Origin: Herpetosiphon aurantiacus DSM 785
GTDB lineage: Bacteria; Chloroflexota; Chloroflexia; Chloroflexales; Herpetosiphonaceae
Assembly (NCBI GenBank): GCA_000018565.1
Contig: CP000875.1
Location: forward strand, 759,199 to 823,198
Length of the DNA stretch: 64,000 nucleotides
Direction: 5' to 3'
Part shown: positions 6,391 through 20,899 of the stretch, one piece after another
Numbering within the stretch: position 1 is the first letter of the stretch
Layout of the letters: every line of letters starts with the position of its first letter
The notes under the pieces: generated by a model
Told to the model about the DNA's origin: nothing
Databases searched by the model: none
What the model saw: the letters and a program-made list of their open reading frames with translations, nothing else
Made by a program: the position numbers and the translations under genes

Positions 6391-6409
6391 ACAAACAGGC
6401 TTTACAAGC

Positions 6410-6450
6410 AAAAACGCCTGTGATCAGGATGCTGATCACAGGCGTTTTTT
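6410..6450 (+). terminator. Intrinsic terminator after tail genes
   Basis: A 16-bp perfect stem (6411-6426 with 6433-6448) with a 6-base loop, containing ACGCCTGTGATCA and ending in a run of six T. It lies 20 bases after the last tail gene and closes the plus-strand tail transcript. Confidence 0.9.
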
Positions 6451-6460
6451 ATGATTGTTA

Positions 6461-6790
6461 TTATTATACTGCCGAGGATTGCGTTCATGCTGAGATAATT
6501 TCAAATATTCAAAATGCTTGAGATGGGATAAGTTCTAATCTCTTGGCGAGGATTGAGATCTTTCGAATCCAGCTTTCCGTGCAGAAGGCATAGTCGCTCC
6601 AACCAACTTGTAGTCTGCAAAGAGGATTCAGTCTATTTGAACCCCCCAAAGACGAAAACTTACCTAAGGCTGGTCAAGGGTATTTATTTGTAATGCCCAA
6701 AGAGGATTCAGGTGATTCGGAGGTGGTAGAAGCCATACAAGGTGATAATCTATCCAATATTGTAATCCCCCAACGAGGATATCCAGACTA
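6461..6790. repeat. Decayed CRISPR-like repeat row
   Basis: Five partial copies of a motif close to TGTAATCCCCAAAGAGGAT, followed by a T and often CAG, have their GAGGA core at 6474, 6548, 6622, 6702 and 6775. The spacing is 74, 74, 80 and 73 bases, which is normal for a repeat plus spacer in type I or III arrays. The copies at 6689 and 6761 are best preserved; the first two keep mainly the GAGGATT core. No copy is identical to another, so the array is probably dead. The sequence between copies shows no coding signal. Confidence 0.4.
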
Positions 6791-7090
6791 TACACAATTC
6801 GCTGGGCTGACGCAAGCTCACTAAAACCACAAACGGTTCGCAAATCAGAGTTGCTTGTGGGAGAGATGAGAGAAAAAGGTTTGAATTTAGCATAGCATTT
6901 TTTGTGATCTCGTGTGCAATGGTATGTAGTGGAGCATTTAGTTACACATAATTCAGTGAGAAAAGCCGCGCCTTCATAATTGCGGCAACTAGCTATTATA
7001 CTTGTAGTGAAAAATTGTGCGTATCGCCTAAGAACGAGGGCCAAGACTTGCGGGGTATGAAGCTTGTCACGACAATTTAAAGATAACTAC
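6791..7090. other. Non-coding stretch, nothing recognised
   Basis: AT-rich sequence between the decayed repeats and the terminator of the three-gene cassette. A 126-codon minus-strand frame covers part of it, but it runs through the repeat row, has no ribosome site and has odd composition, so I do not call it. Confidence 0.5.
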
Positions 7091-7137
7091 AAAACAAGAC
7101 CAAAAACATCGTATTTAGATGTTTTTGGTCTTGTTTT
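7091..7137 (-). terminator. Terminator of the three-gene cassette
   Basis: A 20-bp perfect stem (7091-7110 with 7118-7137) with a 7-base loop. The arms contain AAGACCAAAAACATC and its complement. The stem touches the stop codon of the last cassette gene. A-rich and T-rich ends make it work in both directions. Confidence 0.85.
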
Positions 7138-7583
7138 TACTCTTGGCCTACATCTAAAACGATAGGTGCAATTTCACTTAGTTTTCTTCTAAGTACATTG
7201 GCTTGTACACGATTTGCCATATCAATACCTTTAATGTCGGTATGTGCTTGATTCGGACCATTTTCCTCATCCTTATTTATAGGTGTATGAACAACGGTTA
7301 GTTCAGTTATTGCACGTACTAGGGCAACTGACATTTTAACCACAGCATACAAATTTATTGGAAGGTCTTTTGTTGATGTGGCACGTGCACGTGTTTCTTG
7401 AGGAGTAGAATAGTTGTCCCAATCAGTTGATAAACCATCTCCTTGAGGCTTAAATGCCCCATATCCTGGATTTCCATTTTGAATAAAACTTTTATGTACT
7501 CTCATATACAGAAAGTCTTTATCTGGAATAGATTCTGATGCATAACGCTCATTAGCTAGCTCATCAGCCATACCAATAACCAT
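7137..7583 (-). CDS. Uncharacterised protein, last of AT-rich cassette
   Basis: 148 residues, start at 7583 with GAGGGTGG upstream; it overlaps the previous gene by 28 bases, so translation is probably coupled. It has no signal peptide or membrane segment. The pattern FLYMRVHKSF, then LSTDWDNYSTPQETRARA and a late NQAHTDIKG reminds me of a widespread small uncharacterised family with an R-x-H start, a D-W...S-T-P-E-x-T core and an N-x-A-H motif near the end. That likeness is from memory and has no known function. A later start at 7571 is possible. Base composition is clearly richer in A and T than the flanking replication genes, which suggests separate acquisition. Confidence 0.65.
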   Translation of the reverse strand: MVIGMADELANERYASESIPDKDFLYMRVHKSFIQNGNPGYGAFKPQGDGLSTDWDNYSTPQETRARATSTKDLPINLYAVVKMSVALVRAITELTVVHTPINKDEENGPNQAHTDIKGIDMANRVQANVLRRKLSEIAPIVLDVGQE

Positions 7584-8248
7584 AAACCACCCTCACTTAA
7601 GTCAAATGATCCGCTAAGAGAGTTGTCAGCAGCATTATCACCAGAGTATGTTACTAAATCATCAGTTGCGTCAACATTTATTAGAAGATGTTTATTTGAA
7701 TGTTTCCATGATATATCAATACTACCATCTGGGCCAAGGCCAATTATAGGAGTAGGTATCTTTTGATTATTCATGGCAAAATATTGTTTTACCATATCCA
7801 AAAGTAAATTGACTGCCTTAATCCATGTATCTTCTTTATATCCAACGCTACCCTCTTCATCCCAATTATCTTCCAGCTCAAGCATAAACCTTGATTTCTC
7901 AATAGCCTGATGTATATGGTCAAAGTGATCTTTATCTTTATTAAGCCATCTTAAAACTTGTTTACTAATAGATGGAGTTTCATGAAGTTGCCGATGCTCA
8001 TAATTATAAGGTTCAGTTTCAATTGTTCGTTTCTGGCTAGGGTCATAATAGATATATATTACCTCCTCATTTACTAATTTAGGAATACGAGCAACTGCAT
8101 TGTTATCATGGTTAGCTTGAAAAACAAATGGTTCAAGAGTTCTGAGCCATGACGCTGCTTCGGGAGGATTGATTTTTATACTAGGATTAGGTAGAAGATC
8201 CATAGGCTGCCAAGAAAATACTTTAGGTTTTTTATTAGTAGTAGCCAT
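7556..8248 (-). CDS. Uncharacterised protein, middle of AT-rich cassette
   Basis: 230 residues if started at 8248 (MATTNKK), where AGGAGA lies about 8 bases upstream; an upstream in-frame ATG at 8278 has no good ribosome site and would overlap the preceding gene more. It is soluble with no signal peptide. The centre contains LELEDNWDEEGSVGY followed by a helical stretch, a feature I have seen in small uncharacterised proteins that carry an N-W-D-x-x-G motif and usually sit beside a second unknown gene, as here. The C-terminal part (GPDGSIDISW) looks like beta strands. No enzyme motif was found. It is co-transcribed with both neighbours. Confidence 0.65.
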   Translation of the reverse strand: MATTNKKPKVFSWQPMDLLPNPSIKINPPEAASWLRTLEPFVFQANHDNNAVARIPKLVNEEVIYIYYDPSQKRTIETEPYNYEHRQLHETPSISKQVLRWLNKDKDHFDHIHQAIEKSRFMLELEDNWDEEGSVGYKEDTWIKAVNLLLDMVKQYFAMNNQKIPTPIIGLGPDGSIDISWKHSNKHLLINVDATDDLVTYSGDNAADNSLSGSFDLSEGGLWLLVWLMS

Positions 8249-8258
8249 ATCGTTTCTC

Positions 8259-8936
8259 CTATGATGGATTCGAGTCAAGAATATGTATATTGACAGATTC
8301 CAATTTTTCTTGAAGATTATTTGATTTTTCTATTAATAAATCTAACTGATAACGTAATTTAAGTACATCGTATATATCAAATGTGAAGTTTATATCTTTT
8401 TGTTCGTCGTTATTTTCATATGTTAACTTTAACCTATAGAGAATAACATTTGACAATAGTTCCTGATTATCATCATTAAAAATAGGACGCAAATCTAAAA
8501 ATGTATGAGTATCTACAATACATCGTTCACTATCAGATGCTACTTTGTAAGCAGATGCCACTATACCTAATGGACTATAGAGTGTTAGTAGTCTCTCTAG
8601 TCGTTGGCCTAGATTTTGTATTACAGCATCTGATATTTCCGGATTTCGCTGTACAAATGCGTTAATAATGCTTGGGACTAATTTATCAGTAGAAGTCGGT
8701 ATTTGGCTCTTTACTCCATATAAACTTATGATTGTACGAATGATCCGTTCTGCATCAATATGGGGATATTTGAATTTCTCGCTTACGGCAGCAGCAAAGG
8801 ATCTAGGATGATAGCGAACAGGAGTTTGGGTTATCGACTCAATCAGGAAAGCGAATTCCTCGTCTGTTAACGAAGCTATACTCGAAATGGTCGGATACTC
8901 TTCGTCAGGAATATTCATGACAAAAGATAATGCCAT
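8259..8936 (-). CDS. Uncharacterised protein, first of AT-rich cassette
   Basis: 225 residues from the ATG at 8936 (MALSFVMNIP), chosen because GAGGT lies 6 bases upstream; the longer frame to 8990 has no such site. Mostly helical and acidic, with a C-terminal coiled coil (LLIEKSNNLQEKLESVN). No membrane segment, signal peptide or known catalytic motif is visible. It is the promoter-proximal gene of three minus-strand genes that share one terminator. The stop is 10 bases before the next start. Function unknown; the setting (cargo inside a phage-like element, atypical composition) is common for defence or toxin-antitoxin genes, but the sequence alone does not show that. Confidence 0.65.
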   Translation of the reverse strand: MALSFVMNIPDEEYPTISSIASLTDEEFAFLIESITQTPVRYHPRSFAAAVSEKFKYPHIDAERIIRTIISLYGVKSQIPTSTDKLVPSIINAFVQRNPEISDAVIQNLGQRLERLLTLYSPLGIVASAYKVASDSERCIVDTHTFLDLRPIFNDDNQELLSNVILYRLKLTYENNDEQKDINFTFDIYDVLKLRYQLDLLIEKSNNLQEKLESVNIHILDSNPS

Positions 8937-9161
8937 ATTGACCTCATACCTTACTACAAACTTGTAATTATGATAAGAATTATAGTACATTTAGATTAAA
9001 GAATGATGAGTTCATGCCATAATATCTTACAGTATAATTAGATTATATATCACTTTCCTCCATTGTAGCCTATTCTACTTATTGATTCCACATGTTGAAC
9101 AGTCCTAATGCCTTTTGCTTTTCACACGACCGCACCTTTGCGTGAAGCGCGGTTCGTATCT

Positions 9162-10100
9162 TTATGCGATGATTTGCTCAAACCACCCCGCCCGTAAAAA
9201 GCGATGGATCTGCTGAATCCGTTGGCCGTGTTTCGTATACTGGGCTGTCCAGATTGGTGTGAGAATACCCGATTCACGAACATCGTCGATGGTGGCAATC
9301 AGGAGTTGACTGCCGGGCCAGCCGATTTCCCACGCATCGAGCACGGCGCGTTTCCGGCGTTCGCTCGGCACCGTAAAGGCAATCAGCGGCCAACTATACC
9401 GCCCTTCCCAATACTTCGAGCGATACAACTCCCCATAGGAATGCGCCTTGCCTGTGATGATACTCAGTTCCTCGGTTCCCCGATCGATCTCGATGGCATA
9501 GAGTTGATCGATCTGACCTGTTTGCTTTCCAATCCCAAGCCACGGATATAACGACGAGCGCTCGCAATCGGGCTGCGTCGCATCGATCCAGCGGCGTACC
9601 ACGACGATGCCGTCTGCGCGTGGCCGTGCGGTTGGGCCTAAGTCCATCTCGATATAGCTACTCATGCCGACAATACCAGGCACATACGGCAGCGACTGAA
9701 TCAGACTGGTGATGACTTCCGCATATTCAATTTGATGTTCCGCTTGATGTTGGGGATTGAACATCGTTGGAGCGAGCCGCTCACTGCCTTCCTCGAGCAT
9801 CGGAAAGGCCTGTTTGATCATCTCCCAGCCGAAGGGTGTGAGACTGTATAAACGGCCATGGCGCGTCCAGCCGATCGCACCACGCGGATCATAGCCATGC
9901 GATTGAAAGTGTTCGCAATAAGTCAGCAGCTTGGCATCGACGAGCTTGGCCAACGTGCGATTGATGGTCTGAATTGTCACGGTAAACGGATGGCCCCACG
10001 CTGTGCGCAGGTGGCGAGACAGCAATCGACCAAGCCGAGCAACGAGGACGAGAACGTGCAGCTCAGTGGGATTAAGGCCAACGGTGGTATGGGTGGTCAT
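9162..10100 (-). CDS. Replication-relaxation family protein
   Basis: 312 residues. The N-terminus (about 1-110) is a winged helix-turn-helix: LNPTELHVLVLVARLGRLLSRHL, then IQTINRTLAKLVDAKLL and a beta wing ending YSLTPFGWEMI. The C-terminus (about 115-300) carries acidic and basic residues (EYAEVI, RPRADGIVV, YAIEIDRGTE, SYGELYRSKYW) like the nuclease-like half of the replication-relaxation family, found on integrative elements and plasmids with replication or mobilisation genes. That fits its place at the start of a plasmid-type gene block. Whether it cuts DNA or only binds it cannot be told; E and D in AIEIDRGTE are candidates for metal binding. A later start is unlikely because the helix-turn-helix begins within 10 residues. 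Confidence 0.7.
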   Translation of the reverse strand: MTTHTTVGLNPTELHVLVLVARLGRLLSRHLRTAWGHPFTVTIQTINRTLAKLVDAKLLTYCEHFQSHGYDPRGAIGWTRHGRLYSLTPFGWEMIKQAFPMLEEGSERLAPTMFNPQHQAEHQIEYAEVITSLIQSLPYVPGIVGMSSYIEMDLGPTARPRADGIVVVRRWIDATQPDCERSSLYPWLGIGKQTGQIDQLYAIEIDRGTEELSIITGKAHSYGELYRSKYWEGRYSWPLIAFTVPSERRKRAVLDAWEIGWPGSQLLIATIDDVRESGILTPIWTAQYTKHGQRIQQIHRFLRAGWFEQIIA

Positions 10101-10146
10101 TCAATCACTCCTCACGCGATAATTGGTTGCTGCAAAATAGGTATTC

Positions 10147-11136
10147 TCAGGAAGGGGTTGATACGGTGAGGCTGCGCTCTAAAAAGGCTGCATCTTTCTT
10201 CGCTTCTTCAATCTGGCGATCTTGGAGATAGGCACGCAAGACAATCTGTGTCGATGAGCTAAGAAATGCACCGTAGTAAATGCGTGCGCTAATAAAGCCG
10301 CCCACCAAAACCAAACCAATGAACATAACTATACCCATGGTCATACTCATACCTGAAGTTGGTTGTTTCGTTATACTAAAGAGTAAGAGGAATTTGTCGA
10401 TTTGAGTAAATATGGAAGGATTCATAGAAATAACAATACCTAAAAGCGCTAGGACGGCTACTGCAAAACTAAGAATAGTTGTGTGATGAATACGACTCTC
10501 TCGTCGTTGATGGAGCAGTTCAAGGGCATTTGTTAATTTTGAAAGGGGCTGTTTATCAAAGGTATCTTTCAATGTCTGAACTAATTGTATCTGAATAGCC
10601 TCAAATGATGGTATCCATTGAGATTCTGAATATGGCAGTTCTAGGAAGATAACAAAGAACGTTCTATTTACTATGTGTCCAAACATAATCCATGCAAAAA
10701 AAGTAAAGAAGAGGCTATAAAGAATTGAGTTTGCGAGGTTTGTAATTATATTGAACTCCCCATATTTATGTAAGATGATATAAATAGAAAATAAACTGCA
10801 TATAAAGTATACCTTGATTAATATTAATATAGATATTGAACCTAAATTAAATCTTTTCTTTAGATAAATTATTAAATTATAGAATGGTATAGCTAGTATA
10901 GATAGTATTATAAGTGTAAAGATAATAGGATAATTTATTTCTTGCCAATTCATATTTCTACTTAAACTAAATATTATTCCTAGAGAAACGATCGTATAAA
11001 TGATTGCATATAATTTAAAGAAAATACTTCGATTTTTTACCTCAGCTAACCAATCCTGATACATACTCGTTACGGACTGATCAACTTTTTGCTGAATATC
11101 AATACAGAGTTCTAGGGTATTTCCTGATGTATCCAT
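10147..11136 (-). CDS. Multi-pass membrane protein of unknown function
   Basis: 329 residues with about seven hydrophobic segments: near residues 40-58, 69-90, 101-122, 134-155, 222-240, 254-262 (weak) and 272-295. A soluble helical stretch of about 60 residues lies in the middle (SESQWIPSFEAIQIQ to HQRRESR) and a charged tail follows the last segment. The first 30 residues are soluble. I do not recognise the family. The base composition of the N-terminal half is strongly AT-rich compared with the ATPase genes downstream. It lies in the mobile element between two genes of the plasmid-type block, so a role in transfer, entry exclusion or host interaction is possible but not shown. Confidence 0.65.
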   Translation of the reverse strand: MDTSGNTLELCIDIQQKVDQSVTSMYQDWLAEVKNRSIFFKLYAIIYTIVSLGIIFSLSRNMNWQEINYPIIFTLIILSILAIPFYNLIIYLKKRFNLGSISILILIKVYFICSLFSIYIILHKYGEFNIITNLANSILYSLFFTFFAWIMFGHIVNRTFFVIFLELPYSESQWIPSFEAIQIQLVQTLKDTFDKQPLSKLTNALELLHQRRESRIHHTTILSFAVAVLALLGIVISMNPSIFTQIDKFLLLFSITKQPTSGMSMTMGIVMFIGLVLVGGFISARIYYGAFLSSSTQIVLRAYLQDRQIEEAKKDAAFLERSLTVSTPS

Positions 11137-11344
11137 AGCTGTTCAACCCTTTCATCAAAAGACGAGCTATGCCTTGTACGGTTGACTGTAATGCAACGTT
11201 GCGAATATGTGATATAACGCAGGTTTATGCCGAAGCATATACAAATGGTGGCTGCGCAGCCTGTTAAAGAATGTCGGCACGACTAAATGGCCAATTTAGC
11301 CCATTCTAATGCGCTATTTTTTGCTTGGCGATTTGTAAGCCATC

Positions 11345-13683: not shown

Positions 13684-14076
13684 CTACACATCTTGGTACT
13701 CGGGATCAGGCGGAAGATCGAGCGTCGTGGGCGGCGGAACTGGGATATGTTCAACAGGTGGTGTACTGGTGTGCAACGATTGTTCAACAGGCGGTGTACT
13801 GGCGTGCAACACAGGTTCAACATTGGGGGAACGTGGGTGCAACGATTGTTCAACAGGTTTCATCAGTACCGCGAGCAAGGTGTCCCGCACGGCGTGATCA
13901 TCAAGGCGGGCAACGCTGGCTAAGGCATCGGCGGTGAATACTTGGATGTTTTTGCCACAGGTGTGCAGGCCAATAATCACGAGGGCGCGGAGCACGGCGG
14001 ATTCGTTGCCAAGACTGGCAATCATCGCACTCAGCACGCCGGAGCTGCGGGTCGTCAGGCGTTCATCAAAGCTCAT
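13684..14076 (-). CDS. Small possible ParR-like partner of ParM-like protein
   Basis: 130 residues from the ATG at 14076, which overlaps the stop of the ParM-like gene as ATGA, so translation is coupled. A longer frame to 14328 runs antiphase inside that gene and is rejected. Residues 1-70 are helical with a helix-turn-helix-like stretch (IQVFTADALASVARLDDHAVRDTLLAVL). Residues 72-115 are Pro-rich repeats of the pattern PVEQSLH and STPPVE, encoded by a 33-bp tandem repeat. In ParM systems the gene right after the actin encodes the small DNA-binding adaptor, so ParR-like is the natural guess, but no ribbon-helix-helix motif is clear. Confidence 0.55.
   Translation of the reverse strand: MSFDERLTTRSSGVLSAMIASLGNESAVLRALVIIGLHTCGKNIQVFTADALASVARLDDHAVRDTLLAVLMKPVEQSLHPRSPNVEPVLHASTPPVEQSLHTSTPPVEHIPVPPPTTLDLPPDPEYQDV
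13749..13857. repeat. 33-bp tandem repeat inside the parM partner gene
   Basis: Three units of 33 bases (13749-13781, 13782-13814, 13815-13847) plus 10 bases of a fourth, each starting GTTCAACA. The first two are nearly identical and the third is more diverged. They encode an 11-residue repeat in the minus-strand protein and might also serve as DNA binding sites. Confidence 0.8.
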
Positions 14077-15062
14077 TGGCCAAACTCCTCGTAGCGTCGC
14101 GCACGGCGGGCATAGCCACGGGCGATGGCGGTTTGTGGATTGGGAGCAACGATCGTTTGGCGGAAGCGCTGGTGAATCGCCTGAACCAGCATGGGCATTT
14201 CTGCGCCACCGCCCGCCACGATAATCGCCGCCAGTTTCGCGCCGCTGCCCCACGCTCGCACAAGGGCATCGGCGACCTGTTGCCCATTGGCCAGCCATGG
14301 GCGATCCCATCCGGTTGGCAGATCGCATTCTTCACCCGCGACCCGTACATAGCCTGCCCGCACCGCGTGATCAACTTCGTGTAAGGTCAGATCAAGGTTG
14401 TAACGCCCGCTAATCTTAGTCTGGAGTTGCTGGAGTGGACTGGCGCTACCGAGTTCGAAGCTCATCGCACTTTCGGGCACAACATTCATCGCTTGCACAA
14501 TGCAGGCATCCACGGTGTTGTGGCCCAAGTCGATCACCCCAACCCGACTCAGCTCATAGCCACTGGTAGTAATCGCCCCACTCGGGTCAAGCAACACGCC
14601 ATACAACGCGCCAAGGGGTTCACTAATCACGCGAATGCCCGTTTTGAGGGTTGTACCGTGGTAGTACTGGGTGGCGACCGCATCCCGCAGCCGCGACCCC
14701 AAGGCCACGGCCAACTCTCGTTCGCCGGACCAGGCAGCGGGGAGTCCGGTCACACATGCACCACCACAGGGCTGCTTGAGGCGCTGTAACGCTCCTTTGA
14801 CCAGTGCGGGGATAATGTGGCGATCGTAGAGCCGTTGTTGCGAGCGGAGCGATAAGGGAGCCGGATGCAATAGGGCATCATCACCTGTCCACCACAGCGT
14901 GCCGTGAACATCTACGGTGGGCACATCGTGCAGATTGCCATCGGTGCTACTGGCGGGAGCCACCAGTGCTGGGAAAATAATCGTTTCTTCGTGATCACCA
15001 GTATTGATTGTATATTTGACATAACCATGGCCGATATTGGCTCCATGGACAATCGTTGTCAT
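14073..15062 (-). CDS. ParM/StbA-like plasmid segregation actin
   Basis: 329 residues from the ATG at 15062, chosen because GAGGAG lies 7 bases upstream; an in-frame ATG at 15089 adds nine residues without a better site. Actin-fold ATPase motifs are visible: phosphate-1 GANIGHGYVK near residue 8, phosphate-2 VIDLGHNTVDACI near 180 and the adenosine motif IIVAGGGAEMPM near 280. Such filaments push plasmid copies apart. The phosphate-1 Asp of actins is replaced by Asn here (A-N-I-G), which is unusual and could slow hydrolysis. The gene is followed by an ATGA-overlapping small gene and preceded by a 9-bp inverted repeat that may be an operator. Confidence 0.8.
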   Translation of the reverse strand: MTTIVHGANIGHGYVKYTINTGDHEETIIFPALVAPASSTDGNLHDVPTVDVHGTLWWTGDDALLHPAPLSLRSQQRLYDRHIIPALVKGALQRLKQPCGGACVTGLPAAWSGERELAVALGSRLRDAVATQYYHGTTLKTGIRVISEPLGALYGVLLDPSGAITTSGYELSRVGVIDLGHNTVDACIVQAMNVVPESAMSFELGSASPLQQLQTKISGRYNLDLTLHEVDHAVRAGYVRVAGEECDLPTGWDRPWLANGQQVADALVRAWGSGAKLAAIIVAGGGAEMPMLVQAIHQRFRQTIVAPNPQTAIARGYARRARRYEEFGQ

Positions 15063-15073
15063 AAAAGGCTCCT

Positions 15074-15102
15074 CGGCGATGGATGACACCCACCCATCGC
15101 CG
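15074..15102. promoter_or_regulatory. Inverted repeat upstream of ParM-like gene
   Basis: CGGCGATGG (15074-15082) and CCATCGCCG (15094-15102) are perfect 9-bp arms with an 11-base spacer, just upstream of the GAGGAG ribosome site. It could be an autoregulatory operator or an mRNA hairpin. Confidence 0.5.
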
Positions 15103-15130: not shown

Positions 15131-16267
15131 TTAGGCAACCGATTGAATCGGGCTAGGGGCGAGGTCGCTCGTCCACCATCGATCAAGATGGGTGGCAATC
15201 CACGCCCGTAAATCCATACCACACTGCACGACCATCGTGCCAAAATCGTGCGGGTCAGGCCGCATGCGGGCAACCTCTTTGCCTTTGAAGATATCGAGCC
15301 AATAGGCAGCGGCCTTATCGCCTGCCTGATCGGCATCGGTGGCGATGAAGAGTGGTTGACAGAGGCTGTATTGGACGAGCCAGCGAAAGCTGCGCCCTTG
15401 GGTTGTGCCAATCGCCGCGACCCCGCTGAGTGGCTGCCCATGGCGTTCGAATTGGCCGAGCGCCTGTTGGGCGACCAACGCATCAATCGGGCCTTCCACC
15501 AGAATGCCGGGGCGACCTGCGCGGAAGGTATCAATGCCATAGGGCACGTTGCTGCTGCCAGCAATCGTCACGTATTTCATTCCCTCGTCGCGTGGGGTGG
15601 TTTGGCGAATCGAGAGCTTCCAGAGCTGTCCATCACAGAACCATGGGATGACGTAGCCCGCAGGCAACCACACGCCGTCTTTCGTTGGGTCTGTCAGTCC
15701 CCACTTGTGCAGCGGACGGTAGAGCGGCTTGGGGTTATAGCCAATCGCGGCAGAGCGGAGCGTGTGATCGGTTAGGCCGCGTTGGTGTAAGTAGGTGCGT
15801 GGCGAGGGCTGGCTCTCCCCATCCTTCCACAACATATCAACCGCGTAGCCAAGAAAACTCAGGGCAGCTTGTTGCCAGAGCGCTGCGGGTGGCTCACAGG
15901 CAGTCGGTGGCTCAGGGTCAGGGACGACTCTCGTCGATGGCCGTGATTGCTCGATCGTCAACCCCAGTGTGGCAAAAGCCCCTTTGATCAATTCTGGCCA
16001 TTCTGGATGATCGTTGCTGGGGATAAAGCCCTGATCGCGCAGGAATACAAAATCAATATCCGAAGCCCACGGCTGGCCATCGCGACAACTGCGACACCAC
16101 CAGCGGCCACCACGATCCCCATGCGGTTGGACTCGAAAGCGATCCTTCCCACCACACAAGGGGCAGGCTCCAGCCCATTCACCGCCATTGGTTGCGGCCA
16201 CTTTGCGCAGGGCGGTGCGCTGGCCAACCAAGGAAAGAAAATCATCGCCCGAAAGATGCTCAATCAT
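15131..16267 (-). CDS. DNA primase, CHC2 zinc finger and TOPRIM
   Basis: 378 residues. The N-terminal zinc-binding domain has Cys35, Cys38, Cys58 and Cys61 (CPLCGGKDRF ... WWCRSC). The centre holds the RNA-polymerase-like part, and the C-terminus has TOPRIM signatures: ILVEGPIDAL near 260, FIATDADQAGDKAA near 315 and DPHDFG near 345. It makes RNA primers for DNA replication, and a compact primase of this kind is typical of phage and plasmid replicons. GGGAGG lies 6 bases before the ATG. Upstream is the iteron-like field and then the DUF3987 ATPase gene, so the three form a replication module. Confidence 0.85.
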   Translation of the reverse strand: MIEHLSGDDFLSLVGQRTALRKVAATNGGEWAGACPLCGGKDRFRVQPHGDRGGRWWCRSCRDGQPWASDIDFVFLRDQGFIPSNDHPEWPELIKGAFATLGLTIEQSRPSTRVVPDPEPPTACEPPAALWQQAALSFLGYAVDMLWKDGESQPSPRTYLHQRGLTDHTLRSAAIGYNPKPLYRPLHKWGLTDPTKDGVWLPAGYVIPWFCDGQLWKLSIRQTTPRDEGMKYVTIAGSSNVPYGIDTFRAGRPGILVEGPIDALVAQQALGQFERHGQPLSGVAAIGTTQGRSFRWLVQYSLCQPLFIATDADQAGDKAAAYWLDIFKGKEVARMRPDPHDFGTMVVQCGMDLRAWIATHLDRWWTSDLAPSPIQSVA

Positions 16268-16285: not shown

Positions 16286-16549
16286 GTGTCACGAAGCGTC
16301 ACAGAAGTGTCACGCAGCCAAAATCAACGATTTAGGGCTTTCCAATGGGATAAATCGGAGAAGTGTCACAGTGTCACAAGTGTCACAGTATTCTGGCCAT
16401 TTTGGGAGCTTTGCAGGTCTCGCGTACATGTTCCTTATTAAATTGGACATGTCCCCTTGTGACACTGTGACACTTCTCAAGGAAGCGTCTCCCTGAGTGG
16501 GTTTCTAGCGTCACAAACGATGTGTGACGCTTCTGTGACACTGTGACAC
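16286..16549. repeat. Iteron-like field of GTGTCAC heptamers, possible origin
   Basis: At least twelve heptamers GTGTCAC or near copies. Plus-oriented: 16286, 16296 (GCGTCAC), 16307, 16363, 16371, 16380, and GCGTCAC at 16508. Reverse (GTGACAC or GTGACGC): 16459, 16467, 16524, 16535, 16543. They come in clusters with 8 to 11 base steps, and the two sides are inverted around a free centre of about 70 bases near 16387-16458. The field fills the gap between primase and helicase-like genes. This layout fits binding of a replication initiator, a partition protein or a repressor. Confidence 0.75.
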
Positions 16550-16552
16550 TTC

Positions 16553-18148
16553 TCATGCGCTATACCTCCAGAGTTGCATGGTGCGCCCATTGGCAGATTT
16601 GGTTTCAAGTACATCAATTTGGCCTGCGAGGCGTAAGACTTCCAAGACTTCGGTGATCTCTTTTTTGGACTGATGAGTCTGGCGACACAAATCGCGCACC
16701 GTCAATCCAGAAAGGGATGATCGTAGGATGGCAAGGATGGTATCGCCCAGTTTGGTTTCTTCACTCTGAATCCCATCGCTCCAAATCCGATGCAAGTCAT
16801 TGCGCCAGCGCTCGACGATGCTGATCGCCCGTTTGAGATGATCGAGCTGCATCATCACGGGTAACTCAGGGCAATCCATCGCGGCCAGAATCATGGCCAC
16901 CCGCAACACATGCCCCGGGAAACGGGCATAGCTGGCATACAAGGTATCGGGTAAGCCGTTATTGGGCAGGTCAAACCGGACGGCCTTGTCATAGCGCTTC
17001 CAGAGACTCATGACCCCGGACGCGAGGCGGATGGCACTGGGGGGATGCTCGTTATAGATCCGCACAAAGCGCTTGATATTCTCCTCGGGCACATCATCGA
17101 TCAGTTCAGCGTCAGGCTTGGGAAACAGCAAATCAAGCTGTTTCAGGCCATCGAGTAGCGCCGGGGGCATAGTGAGTTCATCAGGGAACTCAGCATAGAT
17201 TGGGTCGTGCTCAGGAATCAGAATTGCGAAGCGACTCCATAAGCCTTCATCCCATAGCTTTTCGCTGCGCAGATGTTCCTCAATGTTTTTCGGTGTGGTT
17301 GCGCCAAGGAATGAAAGACTGGCATCACGGATGGTTGTTCGGCCATGGGTGATCGTTTCGTGGGCCAAGTACTCGGGATTATCAAACAGCTTGAGTAAGA
17401 GCGAGAGCAGCTCGGCCATATACTCTTTTTTCATATCGCTGAAGAGAAATCCAGCTTCATCAAGCAGCCATGCCCGTTGAGCGGCTTGGGCGCGAGCGAG
17501 TAGCCATTGCTCCCGGTCGTAATCACTGTAGCTGTCCAGCTTGTCGGGAATGACGGTCGAAAACTGCTGGAGCAGCGATTGAGGGGTGCTTTTGTCGGGT
17601 AACAGCAAATGGCCAAGACCTGCGCGACGCAACACCCGCTCGACGACCTTCATCGCTGTCGATTTGGCATAACGCCCAGGAGGAGCCACAAACAGCGCAT
17701 AGACATTGGGGTAGTACTGGGTTTCGCCAATTTGCAAATACAGCCGCCGCGCGATCGCGGTCGCCGCCAAAAAGAGGCCTGCCGCTTCATGAAAAATCGC
17801 GGGCGTGACCGGACTGGCATAACTGGCGTAGTTGATATAGGTATCGAGCCAGTGGCCACATGCGCCGTGCTGGCGGATGGCTTTGCTCAAGTCACTCGGT
17901 AAGGGTGGCATCGTGCGCAAAGCTGTGGGTGGCGCGGGGTCAACCACCAGCGCCGCAACGCGACTATCAACCCGCATCGCGGTTTCCAGCGCGGTTTGGA
18001 CGGCAGCAGCGCCGCCCTGTTCAAAGGCATACACCAAACTTTGGATCATTGATAACCATTCGCCCCAGTCTCGGCTCAGGTCAAGGGTTTGGCCTGCGAG
18101 CAATTGCTGGATGGCGGTGCGCACTTGCGCGTATAACGGTGTCGTCAT
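16553..18148 (-). CDS. DUF3987 family helicase-like ATPase
   Basis: 531 residues, ATG at 18148 after GAGGATAG. Residues 1-110 are a helical N-domain. Walker A is APPGRYAKST (155-164), Walker B RAWLLDEAG near 235, and a sensor-like stretch SLSFLGATTP follows. The last 70 residues carry a winged helix (LSGLTVRDLCRQTHQSKKEITEVLEVLRLAGQI). DUF3987 proteins are found in phages and integrative elements next to primases and probably unwind DNA at the origin. Its stop is only four bases from the heptamer field. The helicase role is inferred from the family and location. Confidence 0.8.
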   Translation of the reverse strand: MTTPLYAQVRTAIQQLLAGQTLDLSRDWGEWLSMIQSLVYAFEQGGAAAVQTALETAMRVDSRVAALVVDPAPPTALRTMPPLPSDLSKAIRQHGACGHWLDTYINYASYASPVTPAIFHEAAGLFLAATAIARRLYLQIGETQYYPNVYALFVAPPGRYAKSTAMKVVERVLRRAGLGHLLLPDKSTPQSLLQQFSTVIPDKLDSYSDYDREQWLLARAQAAQRAWLLDEAGFLFSDMKKEYMAELLSLLLKLFDNPEYLAHETITHGRTTIRDASLSFLGATTPKNIEEHLRSEKLWDEGLWSRFAILIPEHDPIYAEFPDELTMPPALLDGLKQLDLLFPKPDAELIDDVPEENIKRFVRIYNEHPPSAIRLASGVMSLWKRYDKAVRFDLPNNGLPDTLYASYARFPGHVLRVAMILAAMDCPELPVMMQLDHLKRAISIVERWRNDLHRIWSDGIQSEETKLGDTILAILRSSLSGLTVRDLCRQTHQSKKEITEVLEVLRLAGQIDVLETKSANGRTMQLWRYSA

Positions 18149-18265: not shown

Positions 18266-18568
18266 TTACGACTCGGGCGTTTTCTCTTCGCCGTGGGCTG
18301 CATCAATCAAGAGGCGCTGAATTCGTTCCTGATTGGCCTCGATCTCTGCGAGCAGCAGGGCGATCTTGGTCAGGATGAGTTCGACGGCTTCGGGATTGTT
18401 CAAGTGATAGCGCTGATGCACCACTTGGTTGAGCAACTCTTTGGCTCGGATAGCTTGCTTCGACGATTGCGCGGCGTTCGCCAGCGCTTCGAGTCGATGT
18501 TCGTTCACCACGTTCGGCCAACGCAGTCGTCGCCGTGGCATCCACATCCCTTTCTTGGTGGTCGCCAT
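18266..18568 (-). CDS. Small helical protein of the element
   Basis: 100 residues. The first 20 are basic (MPRRRLRW) and the rest is amphipathic helix: NEHRLEALANAAQSSKQAIRAKELL and VELILTKIALLLAEIEANQERIQRLL. Codon use is consistent throughout. It starts inside the longer membrane-protein frame and both frames stay open together for about 266 bases, so one of them probably has an artificial tail, or the two are translated from overlapping frames. No strong ribosome site precedes its ATG. It could be a coiled-coil accessory protein. Function unknown. Confidence 0.5.
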   Translation of the reverse strand: MATTKKGMWMPRRRLRWPNVVNEHRLEALANAAQSSKQAIRAKELLNQVVHQRYHLNNPEAVELILTKIALLLAEIEANQERIQRLLIDAAHGEEKTPES

Positions 18569-18869
18569 TCACGAGGTCAAAGACAACCGCACGGGTTTGT
18601 TGGCGACGTTTGATCATGCGCCAGACTTGCCACGTAATAATGACCCCACCACCAATGCCAAAGCTGGCGATGATCTGGTGCTCATACTGGGGCCAGCTGG
18701 CGTTCGGCGTAAGGCGGATGGCGATCCCTGCGGCTGTCACGCACAGCAGGGTTCCGACAACCACTTCAATCCACGTCCAATCTGGCTCCAAATAGTGCTT
18801 GTAGCGTTCAAGCACCACGGCATACAGCATCGTGGCCATGGCCAAACCAATTCCAACATCGATGGGCAT
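18303..18869 (-). CDS. Membrane protein with basic tail
   Basis: 188 residues from the ATG at 18869, where AGGGGG sits 5 bases upstream; the frame to 18956 has no ribosome site and crosses a hairpin. Three hydrophobic segments (about 5-20, 34-52 and 66-83) are followed by RMIKRRQQ and a soluble part. From about residue 110 on, the sequence turns to Arg/Ser/Gly-rich low complexity, which overlaps the small helical gene and may be a shadow of it. A sequencing frameshift joining the two is possible. It lies directly downstream of the integrase. Confidence 0.5.
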   Translation of the reverse strand: MPIDVGIGLAMATMLYAVVLERYKHYLEPDWTWIEVVVGTLLCVTAAGIAIRLTPNASWPQYEHQIIASFGIGGGVIITWQVWRMIKRRQQTRAVVFDLVNGDHQERDVDATATTALAERGERTSTRSAGERRAIVEASYPSQRVAQPSGASALSLEQSRSRRTHPDQDRPAARRDRGQSGTNSAPLD

Positions 18870-18881
18870 AGATCCCCCTAT

Positions 18882-18909
18882 CAGCACGTTTTTTGTCAAA
18901 AACGTGCTG
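18882..18909. other. Hairpin between integrase and membrane gene
   Basis: CAGCACGTTTTT (18882-18893) and AAAAACGTGCTG (18898-18909) form a 12-bp stem with a 4-base loop. On the minus strand no T-run follows, but the stem itself has T and A runs. It is 13 bases upstream of the next ribosome site, so it may limit read-through from the integrase. Confidence 0.6.
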
Positions 18910-18965
18910 ACTTTCTGTACACTTTTTCCCTTGTTTCTACCGGGATAGGTGGGCATACTGGAGGC

Positions 18966-19829
18966 TTATAAGCATGACTCCACCTTCTCGAGGAGGTTCA
19001 CGCCTTGCCGATTTTGGGTCGCCTCATGGGATGAGAGTTGTGCATAGTGCAGAGACATTTGAATCGTTTCATGGCCCATCAACACCCGCAGACTTTCTGC
19101 ATCAAGGCCTTTCTTGATCAGTTCGCGGGCGAAGGTGGCACGAAAGGAGTGGATCAAACGCCGCACATCATTGCGGATCTCCGCGTCGGAAGCTACGCGA
19201 TCGAAGCTCTGGTGTACGCCGCTAATCGTCAGGGTTTTTTGCTGGCGATGGCTGACAAACAGCGCAGGGTTCGTATCCGTCCGACTGGCGATGTAGGTTC
19301 GAAGGACTTCTTGGGTCACGGATGAAATCCAGATATACCGATCCTTGCTGCCTTTGCCAAGAATCATGGCGCAGCCTTCCGAGTCAAAGCTGGTCCGGCG
19401 GAGTTGAATCAGTTCACTGACCCGAACGCCGGTATCCAGTAAGACACAGAGCATGGCTTTTTCACGAAGCTCGGCAACCAGCAGGAGGCGCTTAATTTGA
19501 TCCATCGTGTAGTGGGCAGGTAAGCGCTTTGGTAATCGGGGTTTGAGTTTATCGGTCTTAACGGGTTGAATATAGCCTTCTTCAGCAAGCCAGCGCACGA
19601 GGACCAGGGCATCGTTGAGATAACTATAGTGACTGGTAATGCTGATGTTTTGTTGGGCTAAATACGCACTGTAGGCCCGCAATAACGCACGAGTGAGCAC
19701 CTGATTCGGTTGCTCGAGCACCCAAGTACCAAACCGTCCTAACCGGATGCGGTAGGTAGTGATGGTAGCAGGGCTGCGGCGTTCGGCGATTTTGGCGGAC
19801 AAATATTCTTCGATCCATTGCGTAATCAT
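18966..19829 (-). CDS. Tyrosine recombinase/integrase of the element
   Basis: 287 residues, ATG at 19829 after GAGGTCATGATT. An N-terminal SAM-like core-binding domain (1-95) is followed by the catalytic domain with Arg136 (GVRVSEL), Lys159 (LGKGSKDR), His227 and Arg230 (HSFR), His253 (MGHET) and the nucleophile Tyr262 (LHYAQL). All catalytic residues are present. It is XerC/D-like in size. It lies close to the right end of the element, about 930 bases from the tRNA-Asn fragment, which fits site-specific integration into tRNA-Asn. The intervening DNA holds repeats that may be arm-type or accessory binding sites. Confidence 0.9.
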   Translation of the reverse strand: MITQWIEEYLSAKIAERRSPATITTYRIRLGRFGTWVLEQPNQVLTRALLRAYSAYLAQQNISITSHYSYLNDALVLVRWLAEEGYIQPVKTDKLKPRLPKRLPAHYTMDQIKRLLLVAELREKAMLCVLLDTGVRVSELIQLRRTSFDSEGCAMILGKGSKDRYIWISSVTQEVLRTYIASRTDTNPALFVSHRQQKTLTISGVHQSFDRVASDAEIRNDVRRLIHSFRATFARELIKKGLDAESLRVLMGHETIQMSLHYAQLSSHEATQNRQGVNLLEKVESCL

Positions 19830-20551: not shown

Positions 20552-20760
20552 CTGTTGGTAAGCTCGAATGTGTCGAGTCAAGTTAGGCATCAGCGTACCA
20601 TATCCTACTCCAGCAGAACGTTAACGCTGTGTAAGAAAATGCTGGTTGGGGCGGCAGTGCATTGCAGCAATGTGGTGTTGCTGGTAAGCAAACGAATACA
20701 AAACCTCCTTCAAAGCAGCCTGTCGAAACAGGGTGCTTGCTTCGCATTTTAGGCGAACCT

Positions 20761-20803
20761 GTTAATCAATGGGTCCTAGGTTCGAGTCCTAGTCAGGGAG
20801 CCA
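20761..20803 (+). other. Right attachment site, tRNA-Asn 3' fragment
   Basis: 43 bases that match the 3' half of the tRNA-Asn at 20857-20899 plus one base. GTTAATCA and the block from GTCCTAGG to the CCA end are identical; four bases between them differ. The 5' half of a tRNA is missing, so this is the displaced end left when an element entered the 3' half of a tRNA-Asn gene. The element lies to the left and the integrase is close. The matching left site, with a complete tRNA, must be outside the window. Confidence 0.75.
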
Positions 20804-20823
20804 CTTCTTTTTACAATTGATAA

Positions 20824-20899
20824 TCCCTGATAGCTCAGTTGGTAGAGCGGTTGACTGTTAATCAGCATGTCCTAGGTTCGAGTCCTAGTCAGGGAGCCA
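20824..20899 (+). tRNA. tRNA-Asn (anticodon GTT)
   Basis: 76 bases. Acceptor stem TCCCTGA with TCAGGGA, discriminator G and encoded CCA. The D arm (GCTCAGTTGGTAGAGC), the anticodon loop CTGTTAA with GTT at 20857-20859 and a T arm with GGTTCGAGTCC are all in place. Its twin 3' fragment lies 21 bases upstream. Confidence 0.95.

Follow-up and report, generated by a model that had tools for sequence, protein, structure and literature searches.

What purpose does a dense field of short repeats serve between a helicase gene and a primase gene in the chromosome of Herpetosiphon aurantiacus? In the window, the 64,000-bp stretch of DNA that we analysed, this field (16286-16549, no strand assigned) occupies a 285-bp gap between two genes on the minus strand. 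One encodes a protein of the DUF3987 family (PF13148; 16553-18148), which we propose to be an initiator helicase, and the other, directly past the field, a DnaG-type primase with a zinc ribbon and a Toprim domain (15131-16267). The gene order is helicase, proposed origin, primase, with the helicase gene ending at 16553 and the field starting at 16549. A gene for a ParM/Alp-like actin, a segregation protein (14073-15089, minus strand), belongs to the same block, although the field does not need it. A preliminary description had taken the field for the replication origin of a mobile element, or for an operator of its replication genes, and had recognised no initiator gene. We conclude that the field is very probably the origin of an integrated tailed phage, and that it is probably read by the DUF3987 protein through a predicted winged helix.

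The field contains 12 heptamers, nine of them GTGTCAC/GTGACAC and three GCGTCAC/GTGACGC, and the iteron consensus is AAGTGTCAY. They are divided equally, six and six, by a 72-bp centre. In the primase-proximal cluster (16286-16386) all six members are on the plus strand, at 16286-16292, 16296-16302 (GCGTCAC), 16307-16313, 16363-16369, 16371-16377 and 16380-16386. The helicase-proximal cluster (16459-16549) comprises five members on the minus strand, at 16543-16549, 16535-16541, 16524-16530 (GCGTCAC), 16467-16473 and 16459-16465, and one inverted member on the plus strand at 16508-16514 (GCGTCAC). The heptamer (GTG-T-CAC) is nearly its own reverse complement, so that it is the middle base and the AA flank that define its orientation. 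The two clusters are mirror-inverted about the centre, as first described, with the sole exception of the copy at 16508-16514, which is opposed to its own side. The helical spacing reported at the same time holds for some steps but not for the 8-bp ones, which are as common as the near-helical ones (within-cluster spacing of 8, 8, 8, 9, 10, 11 and 11 bp). The free centre (16387-16458, no strand assigned), which we propose as the melting region, is modestly AT-rich (40 of 72 positions), is in large part invariant across five species and carries an TTATTAAATT core inside an imperfect palindrome. This palindrome, GGACATGTCC-AATTTAATAA-GGAACATGTAC on the minus strand (16423-16457), is itself largely invariant in the five species and may be the site of a second protein or a promoter. 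Another conserved stretch that is not an iteron, TTTATCCCATTGGAAAGCCCTAAATC (16321-16352, minus strand), lies between the primase-proximal groups of heptamers.

Such clustering is not reproduced in shuffled DNA: no 264-bp stretch exceeded two heptamers in 200 first-order shuffles of the window. Genome-wide counts were made by pattern searches. The pattern GTGTCACN{0,14}GTGTCAC matched five times in the genome (6,785,430 bp), every time inside the field, and a reversed control pattern had no match in the same search; outside the field, the 6.79-Mb genome has no close GTGTCAC pair. Across six congeneric genomes, pairs of GTGTCAY were confined to the field and one unrelated conserved chromosomal site, and the congener that lacks the element (G034) has such a pair at the unrelated site alone. 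The sequence GTGTCATGGTGTGTCAT (G000:C1:1306083-1306099) is present as a single copy per genome in all six Herpetosiphon genomes and is unrelated to the element.

The element around the field is a prophage of a tailed phage, 41,890 bp long, which ends at the 3' ends of tRNA-Asn genes. Its left half encodes a portal protein (PF05133), a capsid protein (PF25209) and an amidase, together with a weak tail-tube match, and these matches identify it as a prophage. The right half encodes a tyrosine integrase (18966-19829, minus strand), the DUF3987 protein, the primase, the ParM-like actin and a protein of the replication-relaxation family (PF13814; 9162-10100, minus strand) with a sub-threshold MarR-like match. 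Tandem tRNA-Asn genes mark the left end (C1:738.0-738.2 kb), where the left repeat copies (C1:738.08-738.21 kb) lie outside the window. The right attachment repeat is a partial copy of the tRNA-Asn 3' end (20759-20804, plus strand), and a full tRNA-Asn gene is located at 20824-20899. Four copies of the attachment repeat were counted in each of G078, G043 and G102, and two each in G034, which has no element, and in G274. An IMG/VR entry (UViG_2508501111_000002) corresponds to 34 kb of the element. GC skew, which had been suggested as a check, shows no turn at the field across the 41.9-kb element and is uninformative.

The field is found at the same place, with its 12 positions kept, in all five Herpetosiphon copies of the element, G274 included (the congeners compared include H. 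llansteffanensis and H. geysericola). We also analysed the DUF3987 protein. PF13148 is its sole Pfam match (E 1.9e-21, 77 bits against a cut-off of 27), and neither DUF927 nor D5/Primase_Cterm, the families of SaPI and SCC Rep proteins, gave a Pfam match in the helicase. The ATPase residues K162 (Walker lysine), E231 and R306 are invariant in alignments of 10 and 14 sequences. An AlphaFold2 model built from the 14-sequence alignment (mean pLDDT 72) predicts a winged helix at residues 461-531, which superimposes on a Zalpha domain with a Z of 12.5 and an rmsd of 1.3 over 66 residues. The helicase profile, searched against PDB sequences, gave only weak matches, at the C-terminus and mostly to winged helices. 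The predicted AAA+ core (residues 96-457) resembles that of MCM proteins (VIA Z 12.7, rmsd 4.8, 245 residues; no Foldseek hit with E <0.001), a likeness of fold only, in a model whose residues 228-303 have low confidence (pLDDT <50). The model places residue 492 in the turn that leads into the recognition helix (495-507).

Residue 492 and the last base of the heptamers vary together. The base at 16675 (minus strand) decides the codon, C giving His and A giving Asn. In the window the residue is His and the last heptamer base is C in 12 of 12 copies. His492 is also encoded by G043 (9 C and 3 T among the 12 heptamers) and by G274 (11 C and 1 T), whereas Asn492 is found in G078 (10 T, 2 G, 0 C) and in G102 (11 T, 1 G, 0 C). 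When pooled, His492 goes with 32 C and 4 T, and Asn492 with 21 T, 3 G and 0 C, counts in which repeats of one field are not independent, so that a Fisher value for them does not amount to a probability. Since G043 retains three T-type iterons along with His492, any rule that links residue and base is not strict. The complementary strand changes from G to A (GTGACAC or ATGACAC), and DNA recognition often pairs His with G and Asn with A. Binding of the iterons by the C-terminal domain is supported indirectly, by the modelled winged helix and by this co-switch.

Overall identity groups the window with G078 and G043 with G102, a tree that most informative sites of the aligned 8 kb follow. A split of the window and G043 against G078 and G102 was found in three protein columns only, residue 492 among them, in a search of those right-half element proteins that were comparable in all of G078, G043 and G102. 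Within the field, six of the eight sites with this split are last bases of iterons. No co-switching column was found in the replication-relaxation protein, in the actin or in the tested small proteins near the actin. The species tree would imply either two parallel switches, with His-to-Asn and C-to-T changing together, or repeated exchange of small tracts; the co-switch is based on five genomes, and a series of small gene conversions could look like parallel change. A single recombination tract is disfavoured because sites 16573 and 16625, which follow the species tree, separate codon 492 from the repeats.

To see whether the arrangement extends beyond the genus, both ends of the gene, 3' and 5', were screened for exactly repeated heptamers in 29 loci of the DUF3987 clade, including those of Herpetosiphon; the distant relatives share about 23-37% identity. 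Herpetosiphon apart, and with duplicates merged, clusters at p<0.01 were present at the 3' end in 8 of 21 lineages and at the 5' control end in 0 of 20 (Fisher p 0.003). Each lineage has its motif: ACTTGTA (L028), GTGTCAC/GTGTCGC with the same GTGTCAC core as the window (L030), AAAGTAG (L032 and L095, which have the same sequence), AAACCCG (L068; p=0.1 in its sister L027), ACTAAAG (L079, inside the 3' end of the gene), GTGTAGA (L093), GTCTACA (L098) and GTGTAAA (L101). Most distant fields have a mirror layout around an AT-rich stretch, 8-bp steps recur in L093 and L098, and the centre is AT-richer in L030, L032 and L093 than in the window. Less regular repeats were judged by eye in L090, L091 and L092. 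The count of six plus six is not kept in other lineages, and neighbouring repeats have mostly one orientation in L101 and L092. The rule is not universal: in about nine lineages, the exact-repeat test and inspection found no field 3' of the helicase gene. Their origins may lie elsewhere, be too degenerate for the test or work otherwise; the test misses degenerate fields, and G274 itself fails it. Some distant fields have no primase relative nearby, and the stretches retrieved around the other fields, some of them short, showed no actin relative. Thus, it is the DUF3987 gene that accompanies the fields consistently. A plasmid collection contained no helicase relative, and a phage collection contained one distant relative without a clear field. 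An ACTTAAG array in L031 was set aside as a tandem repeat far from the helicase. This array, in another chloroflexotal genome with a DUF3987 gene, is an approximately 60-bp tandem repeat with ACTTAAGA units (L031:1960-2235), and reverse copies are scattered up to about 2730.

Among described replicons, the layout is closest to the pri-rep-ori module of PICI and SaPI elements (PMC6092414). In PICI origins, two sets of iterons surround an AT-rich region 3' of rep, a layout said to be shared by 'no other known bacterial replicon' (PMC6092414). The window shares with them an origin directly 3' of the initiator gene (here a proposed initiator), two iteron sets flanking an AT-rich region (here 40/72 AT with the TTATTAAATT core), a primase gene in the module and integration into the chromosome, but its gene order of helicase, origin and primase is different. 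In addition, PICIs are satellites that need a helper phage, whereas the element described here is a prophage with portal and capsid genes of its own within the same att-bounded element. The helicases differ as well: Cch and SaPIbov1 Rep belong to DUF927, Cch2 and SaPI5 Rep have a D5-type helicase segment, and the window protein is DUF3987. By analogy, the module would work like that of SaPIs and PICIs without being one of them, since it belongs to a prophage and uses another helicase family.

The helicases Cch2 and Cch of SCCmec, as far as excerpts of their description go (PMC7581432), also belong to a mobile element, have iterons downstream of their own operon and differ from DUF3987 in Pfam family. 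According to the same excerpts, SaPI Rep reads its origin with the C-terminal domain, the isolated C-terminal domain of Cch2 binds the putative Cch2 origin through short iterons (AAGTG), and self-loading has been proposed; three iterons are reported for Cch2, and mirror-image clusters around a centre are not described in these excerpts. Iteron plasmids of the RepE/TrfA/RepA type share repeated initiator sites in the origin (PMC4980987). The field in the window differs from them in its units of 7-9 bp and its inverted clusters, and no match to a Rep_3-type winged-helix initiator was found among the scanned element proteins. Plasmids of this type have one direct array of units of about 20 bp. 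DUF3987 proteins are, by prediction, a helicase family of mobile elements (PMC5862659). The window protein is a member of this family; excerpts of that report mention no origin, DNA-binding domain or initiator role, to which we add a predicted winged helix and an iteron field.

An alternative is that the field is an operator or an RNA control element, bound by a repressor or folded, which sets the expression of the primase and partition genes and has no part in origin function. We consider this unlikely. The field does lie upstream of the primase gene, inside a block of genes that all run in one direction. Its transcribed strand shows high self-complementarity (z -7.7), and in several cases both partners of a pair have changed such that the inverted arms still pair; mirrored C-to-T switches would preserve such a stem, too. 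These features are compatible with an operator, as had been suggested, but nothing that we found supports that role specifically. Many predicted pairs are broken in congeners, and the scanned region has one weak promoter-like match, fewer than in shuffles. Given the mostly uniform orientation of neighbouring repeats in L101 and L092, it is not a local hairpin that is conserved, but the position next to the helicase gene. Moreover, a stem neither predicts a linked change of a winged-helix residue nor explains the distant loci.

The field could also be an origin whose iterons have another reader, such as the replication-relaxation protein or a host factor, with the change at residue 492 being coincidental. 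The element does encode further DNA-binding proteins, and the switch is known from five genomes only. Yet residue 492 would sit at the mouth of the recognition helix, the replication-relaxation protein, an earlier candidate for the binder, has no co-switching residue, the DUF3987 gene is the neighbour that stays at distant loci, and a host factor would leave one motif per element lineage unexplained; we regard this reading as very improbable. Known centromeres of the parC type likewise consist of repeat clusters close to parM, and two genes on, the element encodes an actin-like segregation protein. A centromere bound through an unrecognised ParR-like adaptor is nevertheless hardly credible, given that other fields lack an actin relative in the stretches retrieved (some short), that neither the actin nor the tested small proteins have co-switching residues and that the gene found consistently with the fields is the DUF3987 gene.

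The reading as an origin is well supported by comparison: the field is exclusive to the element, kept in five copies, PICI-like in layout and recurrent beside helicase relatives. The first reading as an iteron origin is upheld in this respect, and the initiator that it missed is probably the adjoining DUF3987 helicase, with its predicted C-terminal winged helix and a residue 492 that switches with the repeats. After excision, the DUF3987 protein would bind the iterons via the winged helix, with one domain per heptamer. The mirror-image clusters could seat two MCM-like hexamers in opposite orientation, which fits the count of six plus six, and the hexamers would open the AT-richer centre by melting and be loaded onto the two strands. 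Primers would then be made by the neighbouring primase, and replication would leave in both directions. The terminal base pair of each heptamer may be recognised by residue 492, with His matched to G, and Asn to A, of the complementary strand.

On balance, we lean slightly towards a more general proposal: DUF3987 proteins with a C-terminal winged helix may be widespread, self-loading MCM-like initiator helicases of phages and other mobile elements that have their own mirror-image iteron origins at the 3' side and a specificity code in the winged helix, where one residue switch (His/Asn 492) and an origin-wide base change would have occurred together at least twice. This would give DUF3987 a function, as an initiator of replication at an origin that the protein itself recognises, and would place a PICI/SaPI-like layout in prophages, with an uncharacterised helicase family. 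A natural specificity switch of one residue and one base, apparently made twice, turns origin recognition into a simple binding experiment with AAGTGTCAC and AAGTGTCAT duplexes. In uncultured viruses, origins could be sought just past the DUF3987 stop codon.

Several further features of the element were observed. A 13-pair inverted repeat, TCAGCACGTTTTTTGTCAAAAACGTGCTGA (18881-18910), lies in or beside the start of the gene at 18303-18956 and is either a terminator or an operator. Near the left end of the element, a second tyrosine recombinase gene (L043:4255-5280) may stem from a nested or older insertion. The region 6400-11240 of the window has a low GC content, and for two parts of it, at about 6.4-9.2 kb and 10.1-11.2 kb, the other Herpetosiphon elements contain no collinear DNA match; these low-GC parts are probable cargo. 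In G274 (L026), helicase, field, primase and actin are kept, no tRNA-Asn insertion was seen and the match to the integrase end of the window is lost. There, DNA similarity ends at window position 17917 and is followed by a tRNA-Phe gene, and the integration end has apparently been exchanged.
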